64,000 nucleotides of DNA from Beverwykella pulmonaria (Eukaryota > Ascomycota > Dothideomycetes > Pleosporales > Melanommataceae). The DNA is taken from positions 936,851-1,000,850 of the forward strand of contig BCHH01000014.1 in NCBI GenBank assembly GCA_001599595.1. Reading direction: 5' to 3'. Shown here one piece after another: positions 24,674-57,026 of this stretch. The translations under genes were made by a program, and so were the position numbers. The notes beneath the pieces were generated by a model. That model was not told the DNA's origin and did no database searches. It saw nothing but the letters and a program-made list of their open reading frames with translations. Each line of letters begins with the position of its first letter. Positions within the stretch are counted from its first letter, which is position 1.

Positions 24674-27297
24674 GGTCGTGGCGATTGGGGTTGTGTATGT
24701 CGCTGACGGTGTTGAATGCGTTGTGCTTAACGGAGAAGGGCTTGCTATACATATAAGGCAAGCTGAGCGTAGAATGACTCATAGGGCAAGTGAGTCTGAC
24801 GCACCAAGCAACAAACAATCCGAGGAATCCGAGATCTTTTGACCTGAGTATGTCAACAGCAGCACATGTTCTCCAGGGAAGGGAAACTTATCAAAAAAAG
24901 GAATAGGCCGCCCCAAGGACGGCCTTGTGAACCACACCAACGCTCCCACACACCGCGAACTCCCTCCTCCACGCAAACAACTTCGCAACATCTTCAGCTC
25001 TAAAATGTATTGATGGCACTTCCCAAGATTTGGCTAAGAGCATTTCGCAAAGAAGACGATTTGACGATCAGCAAGCAGTCTCGTACAAAATGACGCGCAG
25101 GACAGTCCGATTGGCTACACGAGTCGCGGGCAATATTGACGGACAGGCCCAAGCCTTGACACTCACTCTAGAGAGGTCCCGTCGCCAGAGCCCTTAATAC
25201 ATGCAGGTTGCCTCTCGTTCTGGAGCCTGCGATCCTCTGTGGTGATGCTGTGTTTGATCAACCGCGACCTTCTTGCGACGATACTCTTGTCGTGACAACC
25301 TTTGCTCAGAAAATGGTCAATGTAATCCAGACATCGACGCGCAAAAGTTGCGGCGCTTCAGAACAAGCTACTCGTCAGATCCCCGTCGCTCTGCTTTGCT
25401 CTTCACTACGGCTGAGACCTTCGTTTTCGTAGGCCTAGACGCCCGCATGGACAAGTTCCTAGTCAAAGCAGCACAAGAGTCGAACAACTCTCTCTTTTGA
25501 ACACCATCATCTTTGGGTACTTAGCCCGCACAAACTTCTCTCCGTGTGTGAGGGCATGACTCTCTGAGACTAGTCTTTGTTTCCGCTCCAGTCCCTAGTC
25601 GGGTTTGGAGGGCAAAATGCGGACAAATAACATCCTCAAAAACCGCATGGTCGCATTCGCAACAGCAAATGAAAGCTGTTCGAATGAAAGGAAATTGGCG
25701 CTCGTCAGTACAGCTGTACGCTAAACGTAGAGGTTGACGATTGACGCGACTAGTCGGACAATACCAAAGGTAACTGTGTCGAGCGGTCTAGGACCATGAT
25801 ACAGGCTTCGTGACGTTAGGGATAGAATGTTAAGGTTGGAGCTGTGGTTGAGAACTTTCGTCCTTGTTGGGGCTGCTGGATGACCACTTAAGAAAGCGTG
25901 CGTTCCAAATAGATGCACGGGACATTTCCATCGTCATTGCAACAAGTCGGCCCCATAATAGTCACCGCAGGTAACGCTACGAACCGAGTCCAACACATGT
26001 GGGGTTCCCCGGTCTACTTTAGGAGTCTTCAAGGTTTCAGATCCGGAGCGTGACGGTCTGTCAAATTCATGGCATAGACATGAAGACCATATCGACTGGA
26101 ACGCGTTAAGAGACCTCGCTGGGCAAACAAGTCACCTTTCTGACGAGTGGATCTCCGCGACCAGGATACGTCCGTATGTAAGACTGGACCAAAGGTCTAG
26201 ACCGTGCTCTTCATCCACCTATTCGATACATCCAAAGTTGCCAACAAGGCACATGTGTGGGTTGGTACTCGGCGTTGCAGCTCCCTATACGGTTTCCAGA
26301 AAGAGTTCCCAGTGCACTGACGGAATTCGAAATCCCAAAGACGATTCTCGGCCGAGATGTCCGGCATCTCCCTCCACATCTCTCCTTAACATTGCCATCG
26401 AAACAGTCAGCGGAAGCTATCCATTGTTGACCAGAGTCTGTTGTCCAGCTGAGAGAATCGACGTGGTTTTCGCGTGAAAACTTCAACTCCCTAATGGGCA
26501 CATGATTCCTCAATACGAGGCTTACGCCTCCCGGACCTCGATTCTCCCTTTTGCACACCTTCTTGCGAAACACGGCACCCGAAGGGACAGCGATAGGCTA
26601 TCTAGTGGCTAGTCGGAAGGTCGGCGACATGACCGCGATACTGCTTCTTGCACGAGACGTGAAGAATACCAGAAGAGAATTAGGGTTAAGATCCGAGCCT
26701 GTCCTCCCCATGCACAACCCCCAGTGTGTCCACTGAGACGTATGAGACAGACATGCAAACGTCCATTGAGACCATACTGAGAGGCTCGGATGTGTGTCGG
26801 ACCCATACAGAACGTACATGGGGCGCGGCGAAGCATTCCAATCCGTAAGAACTAGAAGACAGACATCGGTGACTGTGAAGAGAGTGACATGCGTGGTGAA
26901 GCTTGTGGAGACAAGCGAGAGAAGGGTTTGGTGACAAAGGAGAGCGTTGCGCGACGGTCCCGCCGCAGTCGACATGGTCAGAAGATGCCAATGGGTTGTT
27001 CGGGTTCAGAATCCGGTCCCAGTGTGATCGAAGATGTCGTAGCAGCTCAATTGGAGACAGACTCTGTGTGGTGATGGAACTGTCGAGGTGGTTGTAGGAG
27101 GAGGAGAGACCCGCAAACGCGAGATCAAAGCTGTGGCTGGCACCGCGTGTGCACCAACACGCTTCCGGATTAGCTTTCTTCACGATATCACGCTTGAAAT
27201 TCATTGACTAAGCAGCCTTCGGACAATCTTCCGAACCCCATTTTTTGCCACCCTTCTCGATACATATTCCAGATTGTGATCTGTATCAGAGCAAATT
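24674..27297. other. Gene-free stretch upstream of the Rtp1-like gene
   Basis: This is 2.6 kb, the longest gap in the window, with divergent genes at its two ends. Open frames are short or lack any coding character, the longest being minus-strand 26686-27204, which is Ser/His-rich. I see no long terminal repeats, transposase motif or tRNA. Confidence 0.45.
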
Positions 27298-30200
27298 ATG
27301 GGCGCAGTGGAAGATGCGGTTGATGCGGCGGCAGACTTCATCGGCCCGTTTTTGGACGAAGGACCTAAACAAATCGGCCAAGGCGTCGCTCCGGCCGAAC
27401 GAGAAACACTCCCAAACGATCAGCTCGTGGAACAGGCGCTGTTCCACCTACATGCCATCAACTCCGCAGAAGCCGCGGCGGACCCGAATGCTCCATATGA
27501 TGGATCCCTAGTCGGCATTGTCTATGGCCTTTTAGACCTCATCACATCCCAAGGCATACTTCCATTCCTTTCCCCTGGAGTCGCGTTTTCTCAGCGCCCC
27601 AAATCAGTTCTAATACTGTCCTTGTCAATACCTCCCTCTCGAAATGAAAAATTACTTTCCAAGATCGTTGAATCCTTGATTGTAATATACGAGCAGAATA
27701 GGACAGGCGTCCAGCCACTTCTCACTCAACGAATTCTTCCTGACCTTATTTCCGCCGTCACAGAGCTCTCGTTTTCTCCTCACACGAGTCAAAAAACTTG
27801 CTCAACATTCAGGCCTCTCTATGAGAGCATTCTATCATCGACTCCCGTCTCTAGGCTGCTTCCAATTCTGACCTCCTGGCTCCAACAAGAACTTCCACCA
27901 TGGCTCCGCCAAAGACTATCCAAAGAGCTCGCTCTGGTTCCGCTTCGAGCTCATGGAATCCGACATACCATCGAGTTCCTCTCCTTGTCGTACTTGTCCA
28001 AGAACTCCCAAGCTCCTCAAGACTCGTCTGGATCTCTTTCGCAAATACAGATTCCTCTCGAAGCCATCACGCAAGCATCTCGACTTCTGGCATCAATCCC
28101 AAGTGACATGAGTCCTGATCAATGGTTTTCTCAGCTAGCCCCTCAACTTTGGGTTCTCCTAGACGGAACCGAGGGGAAAGAGCTAGCCAGGGCAGCAGGT
28201 CAGATCATCGCAGGTGGAGTACTGGGTCGCAAAACCACCGGCGCGCCGGGGATGATCGGATTCGAGCTCTTTGCGAGACCGTTGCTACAGGCCATCAACC
28301 CAGAGAAGACTGCAAACCCAACACTGAGACAAAGCACTTCAGACCAAGTAATCGTGAGCGAGCAAGATCTCAAGCTTGCACTGAAGCGACTATCTATGAT
28401 TGTATCTTCCTACCCTCATGCTGGTCTCATCAAACGCCTTGTAGGGCCCGTACTTCTACCACTTTGGGGCTTGATAGGCTATGTCAAGTCACGGCCGTCT
28501 CTTGAGAAGGAATGGACGGAATTGCCACGTACTATCATGTCCCGATACTTGACCATATCGTGCGACCCTAGGCAGATCGATAATATAACTACGAATATCT
28601 TCTGGGACGGAGAGCCTTGGTGGACATTTGGACCTGGGTCTCAGGGTGGCGTTGAAATACGCCAAAGGACGCAGCATTCTAGCGGCACCATGGATATGGG
28701 AGGTCTTTTTGCCCGAATCGAAAAGATGGACGACCACCTCAATACTCTAGTAACCCTCCTCGTGGAAGCTAACATCGACGACGAGATCGCTGGAGCGATC
28801 TTTGTACGCACTACCAAGAGATGGTTGTCTCTCGGACAATTGACTGAGAGCTCCAAGACCTCCCTCACAAATGAAGACGACACTGATCCCGTGGCCGCCC
28901 TCGTAGATGCGAAGCTCTCCGAAGCAATGGCCATAAAATTCAAAGACAAGTTCGCTCGCAGTCCCCAACACATCATTGAATTAATGGGGCAACTGCTGCA
29001 GAACTTTGTTACTGAGCACACGTCAAGGTCAAAAGAACTTGAGAATGCCAGCAGACCCAGTCGAGCTAGTCTACGGAATCTCGTCAAACTAGAATCTAGC
29101 GGCAATCAGACTCCTAGCATTGGCACAAATACAGAGTCCGAAGATCTCGTCTCTTTCGCTATCAGTATTCTAACCACACTCATATCATCTCCGGACTTCA
29201 AAAGGATCCCAGATGCAACGAAGTTATTCCCAGATATCCTATCCTCCCTCTCGTATCTATCTCAACCTCACTCACAGCTCACTCTCCAACCTCTCATCAT
29301 AAACGCAGCAACGAACCTCTCCCATCTCCTCGACCCCACCCCCAAAACTTCTATACCCTCCGACCCCTTAGCAAAATATCGGGTGACTTTAAAATCCGCC
29401 CTCACAGACCTCACTTCTCCCGACCCACCAAACCGCGCCTGGGCTCTCTCCGCGCTCCGCAAACTCCTCCGAGACCCTGTCTCCTTCTCGCTCATAGACG
29501 TTCCTTCAACGACACACATGCTCCTCTCGGCCTCAATCGCCGACCCTGAGTCCTACGTCCACAGCGCTGGCATTCCCGTACTGGTCGACCTCACAGTACT
29601 CGCTCCAAACCCCACTCTCCGCATTCTGGTGGACGCTTTCGTAGACACAGACGAGCGCTCGCTGCGTCTGAAGAAAGAACAGGATATCGAGCAAGCGCTC
29701 GACTTCCGACTACGCGTGGGCGAGATCCTAAATAATCTCATTTTGGAAGATGAGTTCTGGAACGCAGGTGACAGAATAGTGAAATATAGCAGTTTGAAAA
29801 TGATAGTCGAGTCTACACTGTCCCTCGCATCGCGCCGCGGTCATCGACAAAAGACTCTGTCTCAGCGCAACCAGCTCGAAAATATAGCTAAACAGGAGCA
29901 AGAGGAAGGCGAAGAGGCTTGGGGTGGGCCGATCCCGAATCTGCTCGACCCTGAGGGCGAGGACCCGGCTTCGCAACTGGAACGCGATGCCCTGCTTAAG
30001 ATCGTGAAGGGGTGGGAGAACACAGGCATTGAAGAGGATGTCAGGATTCGCGCTTCTGCGCTAAGTATCCTGGGTTTGGCCTTAGAGAAGAGATTAGAGT
30101 TTTTGAGTCAGGTCACGGTGGATGCGGGGTTGCAAATGGTACTCCAAATCTTAGTCATGGAGAGAAGTGAGGAAAAGGCGATTTTGAGAAGGGCGGCTGT

Positions 30201-30540
30201 GCTAGTCGTCATGGGGCTTTTGAGAAGTATGGACGCGTCACTTGAAGACAGAAATGAGATTGTGGTGGGTTTGGGGATAAATCACGCCAAAGAGGTGGAG
30301 AGGGTACTGAAATGGGTGCGTGATGAAGATTCGGATGAATTGGTAAGATTGCATGCTGAGACCGTGCTCGAAGGATTGGAGATTTGGAATATGAAGAGAC
30401 TTTTCAAGTTCAGAGAGGAAGAGATACGATTAGACGCAAATCTTGGTCTGGAAGGTAATCTGAGAGGGCTCCACGTGCGTCCTGTGAAGGAAGGAGACAA
30501 TGCGCGACCAAGGCCACGGGTTGTAGAGGAGATCGAATAG
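27298..30540 (+). CDS. Rtp1/Tango6-like RNA polymerase assembly factor
   Basis: This is an intronless 1080-aa protein made almost wholly of alpha-helical HEAT/ARM-like repeats, without signal peptide or membrane segment. The pattern of an N-terminal helical region, a central RTP1-C1-like part (RALRKLLRDP, HSAGIPVLVDLTVLAPNP) and a C-terminal part with LEDEFWNAGDRIVKYSSLKM and RRAAVLVVMGLLRSM fits Rtp1/TANGO6. Yeast Rtp1 is a cytoplasmic factor needed for assembly and nuclear import of RNA polymerase II subunits. Recognition is by overall pattern and domain order. Confidence 0.7.
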   Translation: MGAVEDAVDAAADFIGPFLDEGPKQIGQGVAPAERETLPNDQLVEQALFHLHAINSAEAAADPNAPYDGSLVGIVYGLLDLITSQGILPFLSPGVAFSQRPKSVLILSLSIPPSRNEKLLSKIVESLIVIYEQNRTGVQPLLTQRILPDLISAVTELSFSPHTSQKTCSTFRPLYESILSSTPVSRLLPILTSWLQQELPPWLRQRLSKELALVPLRAHGIRHTIEFLSLSYLSKNSQAPQDSSGSLSQIQIPLEAITQASRLLASIPSDMSPDQWFSQLAPQLWVLLDGTEGKELARAAGQIIAGGVLGRKTTGAPGMIGFELFARPLLQAINPEKTANPTLRQSTSDQVIVSEQDLKLALKRLSMIVSSYPHAGLIKRLVGPVLLPLWGLIGYVKSRPSLEKEWTELPRTIMSRYLTISCDPRQIDNITTNIFWDGEPWWTFGPGSQGGVEIRQRTQHSSGTMDMGGLFARIEKMDDHLNTLVTLLVEANIDDEIAGAIFVRTTKRWLSLGQLTESSKTSLTNEDDTDPVAALVDAKLSEAMAIKFKDKFARSPQHIIELMGQLLQNFVTEHTSRSKELENASRPSRASLRNLVKLESSGNQTPSIGTNTESEDLVSFAISILTTLISSPDFKRIPDATKLFPDILSSLSYLSQPHSQLTLQPLIINAATNLSHLLDPTPKTSIPSDPLAKYRVTLKSALTDLTSPDPPNRAWALSALRKLLRDPVSFSLIDVPSTTHMLLSASIADPESYVHSAGIPVLVDLTVLAPNPTLRILVDAFVDTDERSLRLKKEQDIEQALDFRLRVGEILNNLILEDEFWNAGDRIVKYSSLKMIVESTLSLASRRGHRQKTLSQRNQLENIAKQEQEEGEEAWGGPIPNLLDPEGEDPASQLERDALLKIVKGWENTGIEEDVRIRASALSILGLALEKRLEFLSQVTVDAGLQMVLQILVMERSEEKAILRRAAVLVVMGLLRSMDASLEDRNEIVVGLGINHAKEVERVLKWVRDEDSDELVRLHAETVLEGLEIWNMKRLFKFREEEIRLDANLGLEGNLRGLHVRPVKEGDNARPRPRVVEEIE

Positions 30541-31461: not shown

Positions 31462-32162
31462 ATGCTTGCGCTTGCTCTGACCGCCGAGCTCAACGGGTAT
31501 GATTTCTAGAGTCCCAGCCTTTCGGCAGTGAGCGCTTTCTAACAGCTTTCTAGAGTAACGGACCTCCGCCCAGACGACACAGAGGACGCGCCTTTCTTCT
31601 ACACCTTCAAGGTCCAATGCACATCCTGTCGCGAAACACATCCGAACTACGTTACTTTGAACCGCTTCGTATGCTAGATAGCCCCTCGAAAATCGACGCG
31701 ACACCGTCTCACTCGCTTTAGGAACAACACGATGTGAGCGGTAGCAAAGGCGAGGCAAACTTTGTCTGGAGATGCAAGAACTGTAAGGTCATTATACCTT
31801 ACCCGGATGTTTCTGGCATAGGCTGACGGATAGCGACAGAGGGAACACTCGGCAAGTGTAAAGGCAGCACCCGCCACATATGCCCGCACCGAGCCGGCGA
31901 AAACTCAGAACATCCTCGAGTTCGACTGTCGAGGTCTCGAGTTCACAGAATTCAAAGCAGAGGTCAGTTCATGCAAGTTGATACAATGGCCAGACTAGGC
32001 TCTGACAGAACAAACCAGGGAAACTTCCTCGCTAAAGGTCTCGAAACAACCACCAAATTCACCGGCATCGACCTCACCGACGGGGAATGGTTCGACTACG
32101 ACGAGAAGGCGGGCGAAGAAGTCAGCATCACAAATGTAAAGTGGGAGATACGGCGAGCCTAG
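31462..32162 (+). CDS. CXXC zinc-binding protein (DUF866/CZIB family)
   Basis: I model join(31462..31496,31554..31668,31722..31787,31840..31962,32019..32162), giving 160 aa, the standard size of this family. The four introns are 52-57 bp. Two CXXC pairs, VQCTSCRETH and WRCKNCK, make the zinc site. The N-terminal MLALALTAELNG and the C-terminal DLTDGEWFDYDEKAGEEVSI and VKWEIRR blocks match eukaryotic UPF0587/C1orf123. The human protein binds zinc and has been linked to metal or proteasome-related roles, but no firm function is known. The third donor (GTCATT) is weak. Confidence 0.9.
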
Positions 32163-32858: not shown

Positions 32859-33764
32859 TCAAACATATTCACGCTTGCCCCAGGTGATCTCGGTCGACGG
32901 CTTGCCGAGCTCAATGTCATCTTCAGGCTGATCCCTCTTTCCCCAGGTAATTTCAGTAGAGGGAGGACCGAGCTGAATATTGTTTGGCGGCGTTGGAAGG
33001 TCTCGCTTTCCCCAGGTAATTTCAGTGGAGGGAGGGCCAAGTTGGATGTTGTTTGGTGGCGTTGGATGGTCTCGCTTTCCCCAGGTAATTTCAGTGGAGG
33101 GAGGGCCAAGTTGGATATTGTTTGGTGGCGTTGGAGGGTCTCGCTTTCCCCAGGTGATCTCAGTCGATGGCTTGCCGAGTTCAATGGTATCTTTAGGATA
33201 CTCGTCACGCTTTCCCCAGGTGACGATCGTCGTCGGCTTTCCAATGGTGATGACATCCGGTGGGTTCTCGACTTCGGCCTCGGCCTCGGCCTCACGCTTG
33301 CCCCATGTTACGACTGAGGTAGGCTTGCCGATCCAGAAGATGTTCGACGGCGTCGCGGGTTCTCGCTTTCCCCAACCCACATGGGTGGATGGGGTACCAA
33401 GTTCAACGGTGTTTGGTGGGGTGTCGTCACGCTTCCCCCAGGTTATTTCGGTGGAGGGAGGGCCCAGCTCGATGGTGTTTGGTGGCGTCTGGTCACGCTT
33501 CCCCCAGCCGACGTGGGTTGAAGGCTGGCCAAGTTCGATAGTGTTGGGTGGTGTGTCGTCGCGCTTTCCCCAGGTGATCTCGGTGCTGGGTGGACCGAGT
33601 TGTATGGTGTTTGGTGGTGTTGGGAGGTCGCGCTTGTCCTGGTTGTGGTGAGTAAAGACAAAGCTGAAATAGTGACAATATTGACTCTGTACCTCGATAG
33701 GGAGACCGTTGACATTGGCGATCAAAGCGCCAGCGGCAAGTACCGACACCAGTCCGTGAAGCAT
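32859..33764 (-). CDS. Secreted Kex2-processed repeat peptide precursor
   Basis: I model complement(join(32859..33638,33693..33764)), giving 283 aa. The 54-bp intron (GTACAG...CAG) is in frame, so the unspliced frame also stays open, but splicing gives a compact leader: signal peptide MLHGLVSVLAAGALIANVNG, then LPIE-DKR. Eleven repeats follow, each ending in Trp-Gly-Lys-Arg and each followed by an acidic residue. The core consensus is I-[EQ]-L-G-x-P-S-T-x-[IV]-T-W-G-K-R. Kex2 would cut after each Lys-Arg in the Golgi, and a Kex1-like carboxypeptidase would then trim the basic pair. Repeat 6 opens with EAEAEAEV, like the Ste13-trimmed spacers of yeast alpha-factor. There is no Cys in the repeats, so it is not a canonical alpha-pheromone. 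No UstYa-like, tyrosinase or methyltransferase gene is nearby. The product could be a signalling peptide or an orphan RiPP; function unknown. Confidence 0.85.
   Translation of the reverse strand: MLHGLVSVLAAGALIANVNGLPIEVQSQYCHYFSFVFTHHNQDKRDLPTPPNTIQLGPPSTEITWGKRDDTPPNTIELGQPSTHVGWGKRDQTPPNTIELGPPSTEITWGKRDDTPPNTVELGTPSTHVGWGKREPATPSNIFWIGKPTSVVTWGKREAEAEAEVENPPDVITIGKPTTIVTWGKRDEYPKDTIELGKPSTEITWGKRDPPTPPNNIQLGPPSTEITWGKRDHPTPPNNIQLGPPSTEITWGKRDLPTPPNNIQLGPPSTEITWGKRDQPEDDIELGKPSTEITWGKREYV
32871..33629 (-). repeat. Eleven in-frame 63-87-bp peptide-coding repeats
   Basis: In coding order the units are 33561-33629, 33495-33560, 33429-33494, 33363-33428, 33294-33362, 33207-33293, 33141-33206, 33072-33140, 33003-33071, 32934-33002 and 32871-32933. 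Units 8, 9 and 10 differ at the protein level only in the second residue (Pro, His, Leu), pointing to recent duplication. Units 2 and 4 form a variant class (PSTHVGWGKR). Units 5 and 6 are the most diverged. Confidence 0.85.
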
Positions 33765-35465: not shown

Positions 35466-36230
35466 TCAGCGCTTCTGACTGAAAGTCTTTGCCTCCACAA
35501 TCAAGAAGCCTGACTTGTGGAGTGCCCACAGCACTGATACGACGATCAGCATGCCCGCAAGTAGTGCGTCCCACTGACGCACTACTCGCATCGCCCACGC
35601 CTTGGAGTCTTCCAGCATCATCCACTGACCGCGTGCCCTTCTGGCACTGCGCATGCCAGTCAAACCATCCAAGCTTTCGAAGTTGCAGTTCTTTTGCCAG
35701 CTAAGGAGAGCATCCTTCTCCGACATCTTGGAGGCCCATACATCCATGGTATCGCGGTTTGCAAAACCAGATTCCGGGTCTTTATCGCCACCCTGTCCTA
35801 CCAGAGGGACGCCGAACCCACATGATGTCTGCACCTTCCAGACATCTAGCACAACGATGGCACGGGCTCCTGTAAGCTCGACGTCACTGCCCATTCTATC
35901 CCTTAGCTTTTCGAACCCCTTGTCGTCTTTCTCCACAACGTGGCCCCTGCAGAACAATCTCATGATCTTCGGAGAGGCGTTGAAGCTGCAGAACATGACG
36001 GTGACTCGGCCATTTTCGTACACATGTGATATTGTCTCACAGCCAGAGCCGGTCGCGTCTAGATAAGCGACTTTGTTCGCGTCTAAGATGGCGAATGAAC
36101 GTTTGGGGTGACCCTTGGGGGATAGATTGACATGACGTCCGGCGAGAGGAGCGCTTGCCACGAAGAAGATGGATTGTCTATTGATGAAGTCTGCCTGTTC
36201 CTCGCTGATTGAAGGGTAGAACTTGACCAT
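35466..36230 (-). CDS. Pyridoxamine phosphate oxidase-like (FMN split barrel) protein with C-terminal membrane anchor
   Basis: This is a single-exon 254-aa protein. The N-terminal half shows the PNPOx-like split-barrel pattern known from fungal proteins: FFVASAPLAGRHVNLSPKG, ILDANKVAYLDATGSGCETI, then GRVTVMFCSF and PKIMRLFCRGHVVE. These proteins bind FMN or a related cofactor, and the reaction is unknown. The C-terminus has one hydrophobic segment, WDALLAGMLIVVSVLWALH, preceded by basic residues, suggesting a tail-anchored membrane protein. The family call is from the pattern of blocks. Confidence 0.8.
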   Translation of the reverse strand: MVKFYPSISEEQADFINRQSIFFVASAPLAGRHVNLSPKGHPKRSFAILDANKVAYLDATGSGCETISHVYENGRVTVMFCSFNASPKIMRLFCRGHVVEKDDKGFEKLRDRMGSDVELTGARAIVVLDVWKVQTSCGFGVPLVGQGGDKDPESGFANRDTMDVWASKMSEKDALLSWQKNCNFESLDGLTGMRSARRARGQWMMLEDSKAWAMRVVRQWDALLAGMLIVVSVLWALHKSGFLIVEAKTFSQKR

Positions 36231-36910
36231 GCTGATAAAAGCGGCAAGTCCTGGTAGTTGATTGTGGTGGTAGGTTGAAGAAGGAGTATAATAGGGTTAA
36301 TACAAGCCTCCACACAGAATTTCGATACTCGTCAGATCTGAAACTCACGATTTATGGCGTTATCAAGCTGCAAGGAAGGTAAGAAAGATAGGAGCATAAG
36401 AAGGATTTTGTAAGATGTCTAAAGAAGCAAGACTTCAAAGGAAGTAGTCGAATAGCTGCTGGGTAGACAGCACCCAAGCAAAAGCATTGGATAGAACAGG
36501 CCAAGAGATGTGATGAGAACGAGGAAGTATGTTTGTGGGCGAGCAACTCCTTAGCTTTGAAATCCCACAGACTGACGGTTTTACTCACGCTCTGAATATT
36601 GTTACTGACTTTAAATGTTTGGTGGTTTGGTGCGGGGATCTCCGATTCGGGAAATCAGCACGCCACGCGAGCGGCACGTGATTCTGATTTTGGCGTGCCA
36701 AGAATCGCGAACATCGAACCACCACCGTCGTCGAGAGTCGCACCTCATTACGAAGAAATTTGAAGAGCTTTGATCTATCGCCACGGACACCGAAAGCGCA
36801 TTGATGCTCAATTGAGCCATTCTTTGTCGCAAAATCTCCACCGTTGCCCCCGCCGACCCAATTCCCCTCGTCCAGATTGGCGCACATTCGCAAACCATGA
36901 ACCGGTAGCA
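36231..36910. promoter_or_regulatory. Divergent promoter region, PNPOx-like / PPR protein
   Basis: This is a 680-bp gap between head-to-head genes that must hold both promoters. An open frame continues upstream of the PPR start to 36770, but it has no ATG before 36911. No other feature is seen. Confidence 0.45.
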
Positions 36911-39142
36911 ATGCAAGCACTCTGGTCCCGGGCAGCACGAAATCCGGGTACCTGCAAATGCATATCATGCATCTCCAACACCTCAGCCATCACCCGGCGC
37001 GCCGGCGTTACTAGTATTCAAAGACCCTGGGTCTTTGGAACCCCCACCTCGACCTTCGTGTATACTGCCATATTCGCTGTAGGCCTCGCCATTGACGCGA
37101 AGGCCAAACAGAGGAGGAACCAGCAATGGGATGAGGCATTTGCTCTTCTGCGAGAAGAATTGGAGAAGCCTAGTGCGCGACAGAAAAATGCAATGGCAGA
37201 TATGGACAAGGTTGCTCGTCAACAGAAACGGACCCAGCCAGCTGAGTTCGAGGACATGTTCGTGGACGGGGAGAGCATTAGCCTGTACCGCAACTTCGCA
37301 ATTGAAGGATTGTTTCCTGAAGGTCTTGACTGGGATACTGTCAGTCGAGTCGCCGGTACAGAGCTCACAGACGATCGTGTGTTCCAGACCCGGCAAGCAG
37401 AATCTGCGGTCGACATACAACAAATTTCAAAACATATGTGGAAGTTGCTAGCCTTTGATTCCAGATTTCCAGGGGCTGAAACCCTAGAGTGGTCCCCCAA
37501 TACTGGCCAGCCCTTAAACAGATATTATCTACCTCCCCAATCGTTGTGGGCCCCAGACGAAATGCGCCGGAAAGCCCTGAGCAATAGACAGACATGGAAG
37601 AAACAGGTCATCCAGGAGCTTTCTATCGGCTCTCTGATCCACGAACTCCTTGGGCCCACTTTTCATTTTGCTGGACAGCTTTCGGGAGACGCCATGCGGT
37701 CTCTATCACCCGCTCTTCATAACATCTCCTCCCTCGGTCATGAGGAACACAGACGCAGACGACTCGAAATATTGAGCACCATACAAGCGATAGAGGACGA
37801 ACCAGCCGATACTTCGTTCGAGCGGATTGCATACGCAAAAAACTTTACGAGATATCCAGGGATCCCGCAATATTTTCAAGACGAGGATGGTGACTACTAT
37901 ACTATCTGTCGGCAGATGAACATGGCCATCAAGCAGATCCTGTTCGGAGAAGACGATGCACCGGTAGATAATGAGCAGGCACCTCTCACCTTGGCCAAAG
38001 TCTGTCACAATCTTCTTGTGTCGTCCTCTGCCCCCGATGTTCACACCTTCAATATCCTCATATCTGGCTTGACACGGTGGGGTCTCCCTGAATTGGTGGA
38101 TAGGGTCATCAAGGCCTTCTACCTCTGCAAGATCCGTCCGAACGAGATCACTTGCGTAGCCATACTTGATCACTACCTCCAATGCAACCGCCCGGAAGCC
38201 TTCAGTAACTTCGTCGCCAGGATGCGAGGAGTTCACCGAGGCGGTCTGATGTTGGCAAACCCAACCATCACCGTCAACGAACGTGGCGAAAAAAGACTAA
38301 TCCGTGTAAGCAAAGACAAAGTGATTCAAAAAGTCCACCCAACGCCACTAGTCTTCAACACCCTCATGCTCGGAGCGCTCAAATTCGCCGGATGCGCACG
38401 CGCACTCGATATCTACTATGAAATGAAGGAGGACGGTTGGGGTCTCGACATAACTGGTCTTACTCACTTCCTCGACGATTGCATCCGTGAGGCAGATTGG
38501 AACAACGGGCTCTACATCTGGAACGAGATCCTCAGTATCATCACCAAAATCAAGTCCGCGCAGATGGAGACCGTATACTCCAAGATGCTGAGTTTGTGCT
38601 CTGTCACTGGGAATACGGCGGCGTTTAACCAGCTTCTCGGGGAGGTCGTAAACCGCAGACTCGATAGGAGATATGTGGTCAAGTCGGCGTTGGCGACGGC
38701 GCAGAAGTTACATGCCCAGCCAGGTTTTTCCGCCCCGCCTATGACTGCGGACAATCTGCTGTTTGCGATAGGGGAGTATATGGACGACGGTGTGGAGGAC
38801 AAGAGCACGTTAGAAAAGGAACCTTTGGATCCCTTTAAACAGGATTACGTCTCGCAAATCGATTCCAAGGGGAACCCAAAGCGACTCAAAGATTCGCCCG
38901 CTCCAGACTCCGACGCGGCTTGGTCGTCTTGGATACAACACGAGCTTACAAAATCAGCCGAACCGGAACATGCCCTACAACAGGAGGCTGAGTCAGAGGA
39001 GATGCCAGATAAGGATCCAGACGCAGCCTGGTCATCTTGGGTCCAACTGGAGCTTGGGCTGAAGGCCGATCCGGGGCCAGTCAAGAGACTCGACAAGGTT
39101 GATGACTCTGAGATCACTCACAACAAAAAGTGGAGGCCATGA
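36911..39142 (+). CDS. Mitochondrial pentatricopeptide repeat (PPR) protein
   Basis: This is an intronless 743-aa protein. The N-terminus (MQALWSRAARNPG...ITRRAG) is basic and hydroxylated, a likely mitochondrial presequence, followed by a short hydrophobic stretch (FVYTAIFAVGLAI). The middle contains PPR-like helical pairs: DVHTFNILISGLTRWGLPEL, VIKAFYLCKIRPNEITCVAI, TPLVFNTLMLGALKFAGCAR and ALDIYYEMKEDGWGLDITGL. Fungal PPR proteins bind mitochondrial mRNAs and control their stability or translation. The target RNA cannot be told. The C-terminus carries a two-copy motif, D-x-D-A-A-W-S-S-W-[IV]-Q-x-E-L, at codons near 38906 and 39014. Confidence 0.82.
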   Translation: MQALWSRAARNPGTCKCISCISNTSAITRRAGVTSIQRPWVFGTPTSTFVYTAIFAVGLAIDAKAKQRRNQQWDEAFALLREELEKPSARQKNAMADMDKVARQQKRTQPAEFEDMFVDGESISLYRNFAIEGLFPEGLDWDTVSRVAGTELTDDRVFQTRQAESAVDIQQISKHMWKLLAFDSRFPGAETLEWSPNTGQPLNRYYLPPQSLWAPDEMRRKALSNRQTWKKQVIQELSIGSLIHELLGPTFHFAGQLSGDAMRSLSPALHNISSLGHEEHRRRRLEILSTIQAIEDEPADTSFERIAYAKNFTRYPGIPQYFQDEDGDYYTICRQMNMAIKQILFGEDDAPVDNEQAPLTLAKVCHNLLVSSSAPDVHTFNILISGLTRWGLPELVDRVIKAFYLCKIRPNEITCVAILDHYLQCNRPEAFSNFVARMRGVHRGGLMLANPTITVNERGEKRLIRVSKDKVIQKVHPTPLVFNTLMLGALKFAGCARALDIYYEMKEDGWGLDITGLTHFLDDCIREADWNNGLYIWNEILSIITKIKSAQMETVYSKMLSLCSVTGNTAAFNQLLGEVVNRRLDRRYVVKSALATAQKLHAQPGFSAPPMTADNLLFAIGEYMDDGVEDKSTLEKEPLDPFKQDYVSQIDSKGNPKRLKDSPAPDSDAAWSSWIQHELTKSAEPEHALQQEAESEEMPDKDPDAAWSSWVQLELGLKADPGPVKRLDKVDDSEITHNKKWRP

Positions 39143-49986: not shown

Positions 49987-51829
49987 TCAGTGCAGCGCCT
50001 TCGTCTTCTTTCCACCCTGAACAAAAGAAAGACTGCCTCTGCAGAACGAGCTCACGCGGGAAACCATGGAGCGACCAATACTAAGGAAGTGAGCAGGCGT
50101 CTGGACTGGAGCGGGAGTCGCTTGAGGAAGAGCTATGGTCTGTTGCGCTTGAGTCTTCTCGGGAGTCGCTACAGACTTTTGTAGTTGGATCTCAGGCGGA
50201 GAATTGCCCTGTTTCTCCGTCGCAATCATAGCCGAAGCAACATGGCGGCGTTGCACCTTCCCAGTTGCCGTCTTCGGCATATTCTGTGTGAAGAAGACCT
50301 ACCATGATTAGCTTCGCACTCAAAAACTGGAACTTGTCTTCATACCTTCTTCGGAATCTTAAACTTCGCAGCACGCTCACTGTACCACGAGATCAGCTCC
50401 TCAGTCGTGAGGGTCTTCCCGTCCTTGAGACAGATGGCAACAGCGACATTCTGCCCATACAGCTCATCCTCAATCGCAAAACTGACTGCCTCAGCAATAC
50501 ACGGATGTTGCGCGAGAGTATTGTCGATCTCAATCGGACTAATTTTCTCTCCGCCCTTGTTAATCAACTCCTTGATCCTTCCAGTGAGAAAGAGATACCC
50601 CTCCTCATCTAGGTATCCCTGGTCTCCGGTGCGGAAATGTCCAGTAGAAAAGAAAGGAGATGCGATTCCAGAGCCGATGTATCCCGAAGTTACGTTAGAG
50701 CCTTTGATGCAGACTTCGCCGATTTGGCCCTGGGGAAGCGCAGTACCACAGTCATCCATTATGGCGAGCTCGACGCCTTGGGGTTTGCCGACTGAGCCGG
50801 GCTTGCGGCTGGCAGGGGGTAGTGGGTTAGATGTCATCTGATGGGCGGCTTCGGTCATGGCGTAGGCTTCCAGCACGGGTGCTCTCATCAAGGTCTCGAG
50901 CTGCTGGTGTACGGTCGGCGACAGTGGCGACGAGCAGGAACGCACGAAGCGGATTTTGGGCATTGGGTTGGGCATCTCGTTTTTTAGGAGGATTTGATGC
51001 ATCGTTGGCACGGCAGTGTACCAGTTGGCGCCGTGATTGACAAAGTCGTGCCAGAAGTCCTTGGCTGAGAAACGCGCAGGGACGATCACAGATCCACCGC
51101 TCATCAAGGGGGAGAGGAAGCCAGCTAGGAGGCCATGGACGTGGAAGAGTGGCATGACGAGGTATGTGCGATCGGCCGGGGAGAGAGCGTACGTTGCTTG
51201 GATGTTCGCCATGGTCTGGCAGAGATTCTGGTGGCTAAGTGGAACCTGCTCATATCAGTATCTGTCAAGTTTCATACGAAGCATATTCCACTTACAGCTT
51301 TCGGCCTCCCAGTCGTTCCACTGGTGTGCAGAATCAAAGCCACATCCTCTGGCGCAGGCTCATGAACACCAGCTCTCTTCTTGATCCTTAAGCCATCTCT
51401 CTCGCCGACTTCTAGCGAAACTTCCGATCCATTCCAATACACTTCCGCAATAGCGACGTTGCATTTTCGCGCCGCTTTGATCACTTCGCCGCCGCCCTTA
51501 ATTGCGCCCCTCGGCACAAGAACCAGCGGCGCTTTCAAGTCGTCAAAGTAAAACTCAAACTCATCCTGCTTGTATGCAGGATTGAGCGGAGCACAAATAG
51601 CGCGCTGAAGTGCGACTGCTAGAAATGCAATGACAAATTCGAGACTGTTGGGGAGGGCGATGCCGACGGCTTCTTTTGGGGAGATTCCGACTGCGGCGAG
51701 TTTTTTCTGAAATGACAAGACTTGGTTGAGAAGTTGTGTATGGGAAAGGTTGATCGGTGCTGATTCGCTAGGGATGATGATTGCGGGTTGGTCCGTCTTT
51801 GCAGACAGGCAGGAATGGAGAGTCGACAT
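49987..51829 (-). CDS. Oxalyl-CoA synthetase (Pcs60/AAE3-type acyl-CoA ligase)
   Basis: I model complement(join(49987..50298,50346..51245,51296..51829)), giving 581 aa. The introns are 47 and 50 bp. The ANL-superfamily motifs are complete: LILHTSGTTGRPKA (P-loop), YAMTEAAHQMTSNPLPP, TGDQGYLDEEGYLFLTGRIK, ELINKGGEKISPIEID and the C-terminal KTATGKVQRR Lys. The MTEAAHQMTSNPLPP stretch is typical of the AAE3/Pcs60 oxalyl-CoA synthetases. It makes oxalyl-CoA from oxalate, ATP and CoA. After the catalytic Lys there is an unusual ~75-residue Gln/Pro-rich extension ending in ALH, and no peroxisomal SKL signal is present. A decarboxylase of the same pathway is divergent on the other side. Confidence 0.88.
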
Positions 51830-52386
51830 GATCGGGCAGAAAAGAAATTGATAGAGAATGTGTTTACAAAATGAACAGGGAGAACAAGATTGAAACTGGG
51901 ATGTATGAATCGAGAGGAGTTAATTGTTATACAGTCTCCACGATTTGGTACTGGTACAACATTGTTGGGGTCCATTATGTCTCGGTAACCGTGATCGAGA
52001 CTCGGAGCTGGCGCACTGGCACACATGAGATCTAGTGGTCTGGCAAATACGGTAGGTTGGAAACTAAACCAATCCAAACGACCCTTCTGTTCTGTTAGCA
52101 GTTTTCTTTACCTAGGAATTAGGACCTGAATTCAAATCAACTCAGGGTTCCGAAACTACTGTGGTTGTGGGGCGTAAGCGGTCACGGTCGCTTTCCGACG
52201 CACCTGCTATGGTCCCGGAACATCGCAATTAAGTTAGGGTGTCCACATCCATCGAAACGGATCAAGAACAATACTCTAGGTCTTTGGATTTGGCGAACAT
52301 TCTTCTCGTCACCTACCTTTCCTCAATCACTCATTTTTTTACTACGTCCCTTGATACCCATCACTACATTTCTTCACTTTATCAGT
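51830..52386. promoter_or_regulatory. Shared promoter of the oxalyl-CoA synthetase and decarboxylase genes
   Basis: The two oxalate genes are head to head with 557 bp between start codons. The arrangement fits coordinate regulation, but no specific operator was recognised. Open frames crossing this region are shadows. Confidence 0.5.
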
Positions 52387-54159
52387 ATGACCGCAGAATC
52401 AATACCTCGCCCAACTGGGGCAAAAGTCATTGCCCTAGCTCTCCAGCAACTCGGTGTCAAAGTGATATTCGGCCTCGTCGGCATTCCCGTCGTTCAAATC
52501 GCAGAAGAATCGATCGCTCTAGGAATCCGCTTCATTGCCTTCAGAAATGAACAGGCATGCAGCTACGCAGCGACGGCCTACGGATACCTCACAGGCCGCC
52601 CAGGCGTGTGTCTCGTTGTTGGCGGGCCTGGAGTTCTCCACGCTATGGCCGGTATCGGCAACTCTTCGATCAATGCGTTCCCGATGCTCCTTCTTGCGGG
52701 ATCTTGCGAAACCCATTTAGTCACTAGAGGGGGGTTTCAGGAACTGGACGCCATTTCGCTTCTTACGCCGCACGTCAAGGTGGCGGTACGGCCAACTCTA
52801 GACTCTTTACCGCAGTCCATAACAAACGCGTATCGATCTGCTTGGTACGGACGAGCTGGAACGGGTTTTGTGGATCTGCCTGCAGACGTCATCCAAGGTC
52901 GACCCGAAGCAACTTTGCCCGAAACAAGAGTCGTGCCTGCGGCTCCCCGAGCGGGTATCGATCCTGAACGACTAGGACAAGTTGCTGAACTCCTTCGATG
53001 CGCCCAAGCCCCTCTAATCGTACTTGGAAAAGGTGCAGCATACGCCCAAGCCGAACACAAGATCCGACAATTGGTCGACGAGACTGGGATACCGTTTCTT
53101 CCCACGCCCATGGGTAAGGGTGTCCTCCCTGACTCGCATCATCTAAACACCTCCTCTGCCAGGTCAGCAGCACTGAAAAACGCCGACGTTGTCCTCATTC
53201 TTGGTGCCCGCCTCAACTGGATCTTGCACTTTGGTGATGAGCCCAAATGGGCGGCCAACGTCAAACTCATCCAAGTCGACATCAGCGCAGAGGAAATTGG
53301 GAAGAACAATGGCGACGCTGCAAACGGCATTGTAGGGGACATCAATGTAGTTGTGCCTCAACTCACCGCGGCGCTCCAGGGTTATCAATACGACAAGACT
53401 TCGCCATATATGCAAGCTCTCGAAGCCAGCAAAGCAAAGAATGAAGCCAACGCGGCGAAGACGGCTCAGATCGTGAAATCCCCTATGGGATACCATCAAG
53501 TCTTTGATGTCATCAAGCGAACGTTGAATAAACTCTCCCCACCCGAGGACGGCAATGTAGTGTACATTTCCGAAGGCGCAAATACCATGGATATCTCTCG
53601 CAGCGCGTTTCCGCTCGAGCACCCCCGCCTCCGCATGGATGCCGGAACTCATGCGACCATGGGCGTCGGGTTGGGTTACGCGATTGCCGCCCATGCTGCG
53701 TACAATCATCCGCATGCCGAGGGTCGTTCCGGACCGTCTGCAGGCTCGAATAAGAAGATTGTGTGTCTAGAAGGCGATTCGGCATTTGGGTTCTCCATGC
53801 CAGAAGTCGAGACCATGGCGCGGTACAACATGGATATCCTCATCTTCGTCGTCAACAACGGCGGCATCTACCATGGCGATAGCGAGGAGGAAGATCAGTG
53901 GTTGAAACTGCAGGAGAATACCTGGAAAGGAGAGAAGGGTGGCTTGAGAAGTACAAGTCTCGGATGGGAAGTTGGCTATGAGAAGATGGCTGAGATGTGC
54001 GGAGGAAAGGGGTATTTGGTAAGAACGGGCGAGGAACTGGAAAGAGCGGCCGAGGAGGGATATAAGAGCAAGGTCCCAGTCGTGGTGAACGTCATCATCG
54101 AGAGCGGGAGTAGCAAGAAGTTGGAGTTTGCCTGGCAGAAGTCTGGAGCGAAGAAATGA
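52387..54159 (+). CDS. Oxalyl-CoA decarboxylase / 2-hydroxyacyl-CoA lyase (ThDP-dependent)
   Basis: This is a single-exon 590-aa protein. The ThDP enzyme pattern is complete: catalytic Glu in FRNEQACSYAATAYGYLTGR, VGGPGVLHAMAGIGNSS in the PYR domain, and the cofactor motif EGDSAFGFSMPEVETMARYN...NNGGIY in the PP domain. These are shared by oxalyl-CoA decarboxylase and eukaryotic HACL1. The pairing with an oxalyl-CoA synthetase favours decarboxylation of oxalyl-CoA to formyl-CoA; HACL-type cleavage of 2-hydroxyacyl-CoA remains possible. The C-terminus (SGAKK) is not a PTS1 signal, so a cytosolic location matches its neighbour. Confidence 0.9.
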   Translation: MTAESIPRPTGAKVIALALQQLGVKVIFGLVGIPVVQIAEESIALGIRFIAFRNEQACSYAATAYGYLTGRPGVCLVVGGPGVLHAMAGIGNSSINAFPMLLLAGSCETHLVTRGGFQELDAISLLTPHVKVAVRPTLDSLPQSITNAYRSAWYGRAGTGFVDLPADVIQGRPEATLPETRVVPAAPRAGIDPERLGQVAELLRCAQAPLIVLGKGAAYAQAEHKIRQLVDETGIPFLPTPMGKGVLPDSHHLNTSSARSAALKNADVVLILGARLNWILHFGDEPKWAANVKLIQVDISAEEIGKNNGDAANGIVGDINVVVPQLTAALQGYQYDKTSPYMQALEASKAKNEANAAKTAQIVKSPMGYHQVFDVIKRTLNKLSPPEDGNVVYISEGANTMDISRSAFPLEHPRLRMDAGTHATMGVGLGYAIAAHAAYNHPHAEGRSGPSAGSNKKIVCLEGDSAFGFSMPEVETMARYNMDILIFVVNNGGIYHGDSEEEDQWLKLQENTWKGEKGGLRSTSLGWEVGYEKMAEMCGGKGYLVRTGEELERAAEEGYKSKVPVVVNVIIESGSSKKLEFAWQKSGAKK

Positions 54160-55335
54160 GTGTGGTTGTAGTCTCTATTACGCATTTTGTCTTTGTCATT
54201 TGGGCCTGGGCGCATGGTCGAGTGGAATTTGGGAGGTGCTTTGGCGCCACTGTCGTTATAGAACGAGGGCAGGAAGATTATCCCGGTCCTATAAAGTCGC
54301 TACATGTCTACCAGTGTTATTTGTACAATAAATTCTGGATCATAAGTGATAAGGTGATGATGTGGAGCGAGGAATAATTAGAGACGGTGAGGGTGGAGCT
54401 CACAGCCCTTCTCAGCAGCCCTTCCTGACATGATTGCTCGGTTAACTTCGAACCTCAACCATCACTCACAATTGACCAACTCACAGGCATCATCACTTTT
54501 CACCCCAGCAAACACGGTAAAAACTCTCAAACCCCCAGGAAACGTGCATCTGAGCCTGGAGCGCTGTCAAGACGAAGCTTTTGCCGACTTCTGGGCAAGG
54601 CTTGTCCTCTGCCTTCCACCTCCTCGGGTGCAATACAGTCTCGCAACTGGCGAACTTTGGCCACGAAACATCTCATCACGCTCCATTCCTTGTCAGAGAC
54701 GCATATTCTAGCCATATCTGCTTATTCGACCCACCTTGTGCTTGCAAGATCCCAGAGATTCGGTTCCCGATACATTGGTATGCAAGAACCCAGACTGACA
54801 GCTCGCTTTCCTCGCATTCCGAATATCATTTCTTCATTCAGAACGATGGCAATTTTCTTGAAGAATCTAATCTGATTCGCTTCTGTCAATTACATCTGGA
54901 AATCTTGCCCAGACAAATGCACGAAATAGGACAACTACCGAGTGTCGCGTACCTGAAGTAAGCACCCAGACGCCTGTTCTCGACCCCAACCCTCCGCTAT
55001 ACGAGTACATTTGCAATGTCTCGCGTTTTTGGTCTGAAGGATGCCTTCACTCAGCCCCCCATCATTCAGCCGTGAAGCAAGAGTCGCTGGCCGAGGAATC
55101 ATAGTCAGATACGCTGGATGAAGCACCGAGGATAGAGACTGCCAACAAGCCAGGTATGGCTTCTGCCTTCATTACATACTTAACCTTGCCATCTGATATC
55201 AGGTAGGCATCAAGGTGACAGTTTGCCTTTTGTCCCTACCTGTCCAGCACCCCAATCGTTGTATTCACTTTTTTTTTATCCAAATATCCTTTTATTTTAT
55301 TTTCATAATTGTACTACTATTGTATCCTTACCACC
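54160..55335. other. Intergenic between tandem genes, 1.2 kb
   Basis: This holds the decarboxylase 3' flank and the upstream region of the next gene. There are T-rich runs at 55270-55310 just before the start codon. No coding frame is supported. Confidence 0.5.
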
Positions 55336-57026
55336 ATGGTTATGATGCAGTCGGCGATAGATGTCCCACAACCAGACATGGATTCATGCTTACCATCCAC
55401 TTGGCGACCACTGCCCCTTGGCCGCCAGCTCAGTGACACGAAGCCTATCAACCCGAGCCCTCTGAAGGAGGAAGTATTCAAGCTCAGTTGCCAAAACACA
55501 CCTGGAGAGCTATCTTCGACAGAGGGTTCCGTCTCTGGTGACGACTCCTCCGACGATTCTGCTTCCACAGCTCCCAGTGAGCACTCAGACGAACTCGCTA
55601 TCAAGGAAACGAAACCAGAAATCGGCATACCTGAAATTTCAATACAGGATGAATCTTCACTCGTACAAGCTATCGCCATTCGCGCCCCAGACGTATACGA
55701 TGCACACGCCCCAGCCGCCACAAGACTGAGATACATGATCAAGAATAGCGATCACATCATTAAGTGTCCTGGCGTCTACGACGGTCTTTCGGCCCGTATT
55801 GCCATGGATGTGGGATTTGAGGGAATGTACATGTAAGCAAAGTCCCCGAAACTAAATCAACATCCTCTTGTTGTACGGCATGTGTCCACCTACGAGGGGA
55901 AATTTCTAGGTCTTGCTACCGGGCAAAGAGATCTACCTTCTTATGCACTCTCTCCTTATATGTTCTAGGAGGTTGTATCAGCATCAGAAGTGTCGTGACC
56001 GCTGCAATATTTTTCTCGCATGAGCGGTGAAATGCAGTAAATGTCAGACATATGAGCTATAATTGAATGCCTCACTGAGGACCTACTACGCCACTCTTTC
56101 GACCGTTCGAGACCTGCTAACGTTCGGTAATAGGACAGGAGCCGGTACCACTGCTTCACGTCTCGGGTATGTAATACCCCAGTACTTCCGCTTAGAATAA
56201 TTGGTAGAGAGTGACCTCAGGGGCTGCCTCGTATATCGGAAAGGCTCTAGTATTTCTCCCGATTTCGGAATATATGCTGACCTTCACCTCAAGGCAAGCC
56301 GATCTCGGTATCGCCCACCTGTATGACATGCGCACCAACGCCGAAATGATTGCCAATCTGCGGCCCGACGGCCCTCCTCTTATAGCCGACATGGACACCG
56401 GATACGGCGGTCCTCTAGTCGTCGCCAGATCCCTCCAGCAATACCACATCTCTGGCGTCGCAGGCTTTCATATCGAGGACCAGATCATGAACAAGCGATG
56501 CGGCCATCTTGCCGGGAAGGAAGTCGTGGATATCGATACCTACATCCAGCGCATCAAAGCATGCGTCGTGGCTCGCGCACAGCTCCGCTCCGACATCGTT
56601 ATCATTGCGCGTACCGATGCTCTACAATCCAAGGGCTTCGACGAATGCATCGAGCGCCTCAAGCGCGCTCGCGACGAGGGCGCCGACATGGGCATCCTCG
56701 AAGGCGTCAAAAATAAAGAGCAAGCCGCGCTCGCCGCCAGACTCCTCGCTCCCTGGCCTATGTGCTACAATAGCGTGGAGAACGGCCATTCCCCACTAAT
56801 CACGGCGCAAGAGCTCCAGGACATGGGATACAGAATTGTCATTTACAGCTTCGCGGGTATCAGCCCGGCGTACGTGGCTATCAAGAGTACGTTTGAGTGG
56901 CTGAAGGAGACGGGGTCGACGGGCAGTTCGGTGAGCCCGAAGACCATTTTCAATGTTTGTGGGTTGGCAGATAGTATTGTTATTGATGAGGCGAGTGGGG
57001 GAACGGCGTTTGCGAAGGGGGTGTGA
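55336..57026 (+). CDS. Isocitrate lyase/PEP-mutase superfamily enzyme, oxaloacetate acetylhydrolase-like
   Basis: I model join(55336..55832,56134..56166,56294..57026), giving 420 aa. The middle exon is 33 bp, and the introns (301 and 127 bp) are longer than the local norm. The ATG has an ACCACCATGG context. The first ~140 residues are a Ser/Glu/Pro-rich extension. The catalytic barrel follows: CPGVYDGLSARIAMDVGFEG, MTGAGTTASRLG, LIADMDTGYGGP, HIEDQIMNKRCGH (Cys246 of the KKCGH-type motif), IARTDALQ and MCYNSVENGHSP. The blocks resemble fungal oxaloacetate acetylhydrolase, which splits oxaloacetate to oxalate and acetate. Other superfamily reactions (2,3-dimethylmalate lyase and methylisocitrate lyase-like) are not excluded. 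Confidence 0.72.

Follow-up and report, generated by a model that had tools for sequence, protein, structure and literature searches.

A candidate precursor of undescribed secreted peptides in Beverwykella pulmonaria: eleven W-G-K-R units in a probable KEX2-processed repeat protein

A minus-strand gene (33764 to 32859) in a 64,000-nucleotide stretch of Beverwykella pulmonaria DNA, hereafter the window, very probably encodes the precursor of a KEX2-processed repeat protein (KEP), and is on sequence grounds a good candidate for the source of an undescribed secreted peptide. The KEP class is an established one that, by prediction, runs to thousands of proteins (7878 in fungi; Umemura 2020, PMC7329392), most of them so far without an assigned function (PMC6339444, PMC7329392), and we conclude that the repeat gene is a member of an uncharacterised family inside this already known and widespread class. 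That it is a KEP precursor processed in the manner proposed below is, taken as one combined statement, highly likely. The role of the released peptides is a more tentative matter, and the reading that we prefer, a secreted self-signal, is put at somewhat less than an even chance.

The reading frame is intact over 301 codons, from ATG to stop without internal stops; the first-pass annotation had described it correctly, with the minus strand left unstated. It opens with a hydrophobic, signal-like N-terminus (codons 1-20, MLHGLVSVLAAGALIANVNG; 33705..33764, on the minus strand as are all precursor features below), recognised from the translation, the hydropathy and the start of the relatives: nine-residue hydropathy reaches 2.57, the putative signal being called from hydrophobicity, and a SVLAAG-type start is common to this N-terminus and the relatives. 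The leader begins with LPIE (codons 21-24, 33693..33704) and closes with DKR (33630..33638), the first putative Kex2 site. Next come eleven units, each 21 to 29 residues long and closing in W-G-K-R: unit 1 (DLPTPPNTIQLGPPSTEITWG-KR, 33561..33629), unit 2 (DDTPPNTIELGQPSTHVGWG-KR, 33495..33560), unit 3 (DQTPPNTIELGPPSTEITWG-KR, 33429..33494), unit 4 (DDTPPNTVELGTPSTHVGWG-KR, 33363..33428), unit 5 (EPATPSNIFWIGKPTSVVTWG-KR, 33294..33362), unit 6 (EAEAEAEVENPPDVITIGKPTTIVTWG-KR, 33207..33293), unit 7 (DEYPKDTIELGKPSTEITWG-KR, 33141..33206), unit 8 (DPPTPPNNIQLGPPSTEITWG-KR, 33072..33140), unit 9 (DHPTPPNNIQLGPPSTEITWG-KR, 33003..33071, sharing its core DNA with unit 8), unit 10 (DLPTPPNNIQLGPPSTEITWG-KR, 32934..33002) and unit 11 (DQPEDDIELGKPSTEITWG-KR, 32871..32933). 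A tail, EYV, and the stop codon occupy 32859..32870. Without their KR, ten units measure 19 to 21 residues and one 27; nine end in TWG and two in GWG, and D or E stands directly after WGKR in 11 of 11. Net charge ranges from 0 to -5, ten units being net negative. The single Tyr of the eleven units lies in a spacer, leaving ten units without any, and no Cys was found in them on reading through the translation. A run resembling Ste13 dipeptides (EAEAEA; X-A/X-P rule, PMC6339444) is clear in unit 6 only, and EP or DP begins units 5 and 8.

In 20,000 residue shuffles of the repeat region, WGKR occurred 0.003 times on average and never more than once. The corresponding DNA pattern, WGKR[D/E], matched the window 11 times, always inside the repeat gene, against an expectation of 0.02, and none of 100 window shuffles reached eleven sites; genome-wide it gave 44 matches, of which 11 fall in the repeat gene and two in a long paralogue described below, and the reversed control gave 36. 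Eleven W-G-K-R units each followed by an acidic residue, predicted peptides of 19 to 27 residues ending in TWG or GWG, and a Kex2-type architecture of dibasic-bounded units had all been proposed at first pass and are borne out. Pfam returned only sub-cut-off matches for the window protein and scattered ones across its relatives, and NCBIfam returned none for the repeat protein. Structure prediction yielded no confident fold: the whole frame had a mean pLDDT of 36 with weak strand pairs in most units, and a two-unit piece reached 61 and showed no strands. The protein resembles KEPs as described by Le Marquer 2019 (PMC6339444) and Umemura 2020 (PMC7329392), with a signal-like N-terminus, at least three near-identical units separated by dibasic sites and no recognised domain; the class requires a minimum of three similar units between Kex2 sites, and eleven are present.

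Eighteen leader residues, V25 to Q42, are encoded by 54 bases in phase 0 (33639..33692) that read GTACAG...TTTAC...CAG. In each of two pairs of relatives, one prediction has a V...Q stretch at the equivalent leader site that the close relative lacks (16 residues in P0004 versus none in P0006 and P0008; 21 residues in P0009 versus none in P0021). From the splice signals and from these relatives, compared as proteins, the segment is probably an in-frame intron retained in the 301-residue frame, which, with a length divisible by three, would be readily read through; once it is removed, the leader would be LPIE-DKR. The earlier description of a signal peptide and a short leader ending in DKR therefore holds for the hydrophobic N-terminus and for DKR, while the V25-Q42 portion of that leader is probably intronic.

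Selection on the units was assessed by pN/pS with the units anchored on Trp, over 15 core codons and seven spacer codons in all 55 unit pairs, which are not independent and between which conversion is possible. The core codons had a pS of 0.678 and a pN of 0.194 (ratio 0.29), and the spacer codons a ratio of 0.58, in which the unit 11 value includes a codon from the Kex2 site before it. The remaining two sense frames gave 1.25 and 3.68, and differences between units numbered 222, 95 and 465 at the three codon positions in order. Units 1 and 8 encode the same core peptide with 10 of 45 bases different; units 8 and 9 are the only ones with identical core DNA. Synonymous sites are near saturation while pN is 0.194, and the comparison shows that selection keeps the peptide and not the DNA. 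On the plus strand, a 201-codon ATG frame (33046-33651) lies antisense to the repeats, mirrors them and is not independently supported. The antisense frames gave ratios of 1.26, 0.38 (with 10 codon comparisons skipped) and 3.22; as one of them is also low, the ratio by itself does not decide against an antisense gene, and a value such as 0.38 is expected where third positions coincide. We rejected the antisense gene on the grounds that it mirrors the repeats and that the relatives match the minus-strand frame instead.

Among the 7995 candidates sharing most words with the query, searching with the single sequence yielded 19 hits at E<=10, and a profile search yielded 26 proteins at E<=1. By eye, 19 of the 26 were assigned to the same short type as the repeat gene (P0002-P0010, P0021-P0030) and seven to a longer type; alignment A1 comprises nine of the 19 single-sequence hits. 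Where a source is named, the short type comes from other Dothideomycetes, namely Alternaria, Bipolaris, Stemphylium and Patellaria, with the annotation 'hypothetical protein', and counts over the relatives are not independent, several short-type records being near-identical and Alternaria-like. With a second short-type protein as query, the repeat gene was the sole match in its genome at E<=0.01, a search that missed the long paralogue too, and it is the only short-type member found in that genome by these sequence searches. The first-pass annotation had called the gene an orphan and had named absence of the family from related species as grounds against its reading; the family was searched for and is present there, and since a long paralogue also lies in the same genome, the gene is not an orphan. 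Three of the 19 single-sequence hits beat an E of 1e-3 yet are not of the short type, among them the animal-neuropeptide-like P0013. Such animal WGKR-like hits (P0013, P0015, P0017-P0020; E 5.6e-4 to 6) were rejected as kin and taken as convergent: these neuropeptide precursors share the repeated ...WGKR, but the LGxP core is absent in the four of six that were read (P0013, P0015, P0018, P0020). In animal WGKR precursors the G would serve as an amide donor.

Our best reading of the core of the putative released peptides is I-x-L-G-x-P-S-T-x-[IV]-T-W-G. Across 113 W-anchored stretches from the 19 short-type relatives, a few of these stretches not being genuine units, the most strongly kept residues apart from W were T/S at -4 (105), V/I at -2 (104), P at -6 (87), G at -8 (84) and L at -9 (83), and W was followed by G in 56 and by S in 42. 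The proteins themselves end in W-S or W-G in 12 of 19 relatives (five of these carry a name at NCBI and lie on contigs of at least 73 kb), in WGK in one, in WGKE in three and otherwise in three. Because relatives' proteins stop at W-G or W-S, the mature C-terminus is likely W-G or W-S independently of Kex1, and it may differ between species, given the three WGKE ends and the three not near the W motif. Amidation of the animal type is unlikely, since S often replaces G and since PAM is reported to be missing throughout fungi (PMC6529398); a search of the genome with PF01082 was empty, with control genomes equally silent. The predicted peptide end would accordingly be a free acid rather than an amide.

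The long paralogue in the same genome is an 829-codon open frame on contig C6 (L005 3032-5521) with WGKR units, W-D units and a Cys-rich C-terminal part. Used as query among 7989 word-sharing candidates, it gave 22 hits at E<=0.01, including Lophiotrema, Kalmusia and, at 61% identity, Melanomma, a member of the Pleosporales. Proteins of this long type span about 450-1060 residues (P0035-P0054 and the C6 frame). The Pleosporales paralogues resemble the repeat gene in their W-anchored core and WGKR units but differ in having many W-D motifs without a dibasic pair, long P/E/D/T-rich spacers and, in those read, the Cys-rich C-terminal part. We scored them with a position matrix built from 77 distinct short-type units of 18 of the 19 relatives (Patellaria P0010 omitted) at an author-set threshold of 8 bits. 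The window's eleven units scored 17 to 39 bits, and nine of the 21 Trp positions of the C6 paralogue exceeded 8 bits; in a control of 300 shuffles per protein, means were at most 0.01 and counts never exceeded 1. Across 29 long-type proteins, two of which had no motif above threshold, 93 motifs exceeded it, directly followed by a dibasic pair in 45 and not in 48; of these 48, 34 read W-D, and some others have a pair a few residues on. A motif kept where Kex2 would not free its end speaks against a purely free-ligand role, and its conservation at such sites is the least explained part of the KEP reading. One W-anchored motif might serve both free, from the short precursor, and fixed, in a long secreted or wall-type protein, the free peptides competing with or reporting on the fixed ones as a non-mating signal of hyphal or wall state in Dothideomycetes; we regard this elaboration as speculative and rather improbable.

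The tested neighbours of the repeat gene are housekeeping genes: an RTP1/TANGO6-like gene (27280-30540), an exon of a CXXC zinc-binding protein (31555-31668), a PNPOx-domain gene (35466-36296) and a gene whose PPR matches fall slightly short of the cut-offs (36764-39142). The right end of the window, about 30 kb past the repeat gene, is also the contig end. Farther along, an AMP-binding acyl-CoA synthetase gene (51919-50340, minus) is divergent to a thiamine-diphosphate enzyme gene (52123-54156, plus) whose best NCBIfam match is oxalyl-CoA decarboxylase at 487.8 bits, under the cut-off of 557, and a gene of the PEP-mutase/isocitrate-lyase family (56208-57023) comes next; the genes at 50340-57026 are perhaps an oxalate-related group. 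Genome-wide there are 58 UstYa (DUF3328) matches, several of which are exons belonging to a single gene; the number suggests many RiPP-type clusters elsewhere in the genome.

In the scheme that we propose, the precursor would enter the secretory pathway via its signal-like N-terminus, Kex2 would cut after every KR and Kex1 would strip K and R, so that eleven linear, mostly acidic 19-27-mers ending in W-G with a free carboxyl would be secreted. A Ste13-type dipeptidyl peptidase could trim unit 6 and perhaps also the EP and DP starts. The genome has one match to the Kex2-type P domain and two DPPIV-type genes. The P/T-rich front of each unit would be a variable spacer and the C-terminal core the active part, which, on the self-signal reading, would be recognised outside mating by a partner of the fungus's own, be it a receptor or a component of the wall.

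A literature search, with supplementary tables outside it, found no description of a W-G core family. The core matches none of the KEP motifs named in the main text of PMC6339444 (DADAATXYV[A/V]D, YVW[G/A][G/S], SPPHKT and QKLKVD), though it may stand unnamed in the supplementary lists. Umemura's type G-9 (PMC7329392) covers 14 genera, many of them Pleosporales, has DUF3328 genes nearby in 0 of 48 cases and is listed with CARD_2, T2SSM_b and DUF3953; these Pfams gave 0 matches in 20 short-type members at E<=10 with a newer Pfam.

Self-signal, surface and outward-directed roles are ranked roughly in that order of likelihood. Were the units and their long paralogues to coat or bind the hyphal wall and so alter the surface, as the Kex2-released Rep1 repellents do, the retention of the motif in long paralogues without a direct dibasic pair (the 48 of 93) would fit a binding or assembly unit, and hydrophobic residues do alternate in the core. 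Rep1/Hum3 of Ustilago maydis is likewise built of imperfect Kex2-separated repeats released as peptides, and Rep1 peptides build amyloid-like fibrils (PMC4617103, PMC9769878). These are, however, amphipathic and 35-53 residues long (PMC4617103), which by description sets them apart from our mostly acidic units of 19-27 residues, and no confident fold was predicted; we consider a surface role unlikely, at about one chance in a few. The peptides could instead be directed outward, as host effectors or against competitors, a role that is doubtful to a similar degree. Several short-type relatives belong to plant-associated genera, which we count in its favour. Such a role has been proposed for KEPs conserved among pathogenic fungi (PMC6339444). 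In Coprinopsis, KEP peptides were found to be linear and lightly modified; knock-outs of kep genes in C. cinerea had no detectable phenotype in axenic culture, and roles in the biotic environment are suggested there (PMC9769878). Yet our peptides are neither cationic nor Cys-rich, and their core is alike in eleven units, whereas under an arms race divergence would be expected. Patellaria, a saprotroph, has the short type too, which counts against an outward role as well.

An alpha-type mating pheromone acting on the fungus's own Ste2 is improbable. The architecture is that of ascomycete alpha-pheromone precursors, EAEAEA stretch included; the genome has an intact-looking Ste2 match (C3:1523259-1524145), and no repeated PYGxPxG pheromone was found in it: the exact Pleosporales motif had no match (one in the control), and relaxing the pattern yielded 78 and 11 scattered matches, fewer than the 124 and 39 of the respective controls, with no repetition inside any gene-sized stretch. 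That gap counts for less in that exact-motif searches would miss a diverged pheromone. The alpha-pheromones differ, moreover, in having a Cys pair or PYGxPxG (PMC6339444), neither of which is in the eleven units, and Ste13 dipeptides before each unit, where only unit 6 has a clear run; the lack of Cys itself means that this is not a Cys-type alpha-pheromone, as noted at first pass. Pleosporales including Alternaria are, besides, reported with PYG[L/M]P[I/V]G (PMC6339444), and Alternaria also has the W-G family. A cyclic dikaritin or ustiloxin-type RiPP, which has the same type of precursor and for which the genome's 58 UstYa matches might speak, is very improbable: all 58 are outside the window, the sole match on the contig is about 285 kb off, and the other side of the gene is seen for only ~30 kb. 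With that qualification the earlier statement that no ustiloxin-type genes are nearby is supported. The housekeeping neighbours and the near-absence of Tyr, its one residue lying in a spacer, argue the same way, and the peptides are likely linear rather than cyclic. Least probable of all is a non-functional or recent DNA repeat, open by chance: the identical core DNA of units 8 and 9 does point to some recent duplication or conversion, but relatives exist in other genera, units 1 and 8 differ at the DNA level under one core peptide, and the near-saturated synonymous sites between units rule out a recent artefact in the main.

Few KEPs have a known product. With its sharp core, readable mature C-terminus, one short-type gene found and strong constraint at the protein level, the W-G family is a practical choice for studying a candidate secreted peptide outside mating in a major group of moulds. 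That its motif also stands in long paralogues, where part of the copies would escape cleavage, poses a concrete question, namely what target the motif binds.
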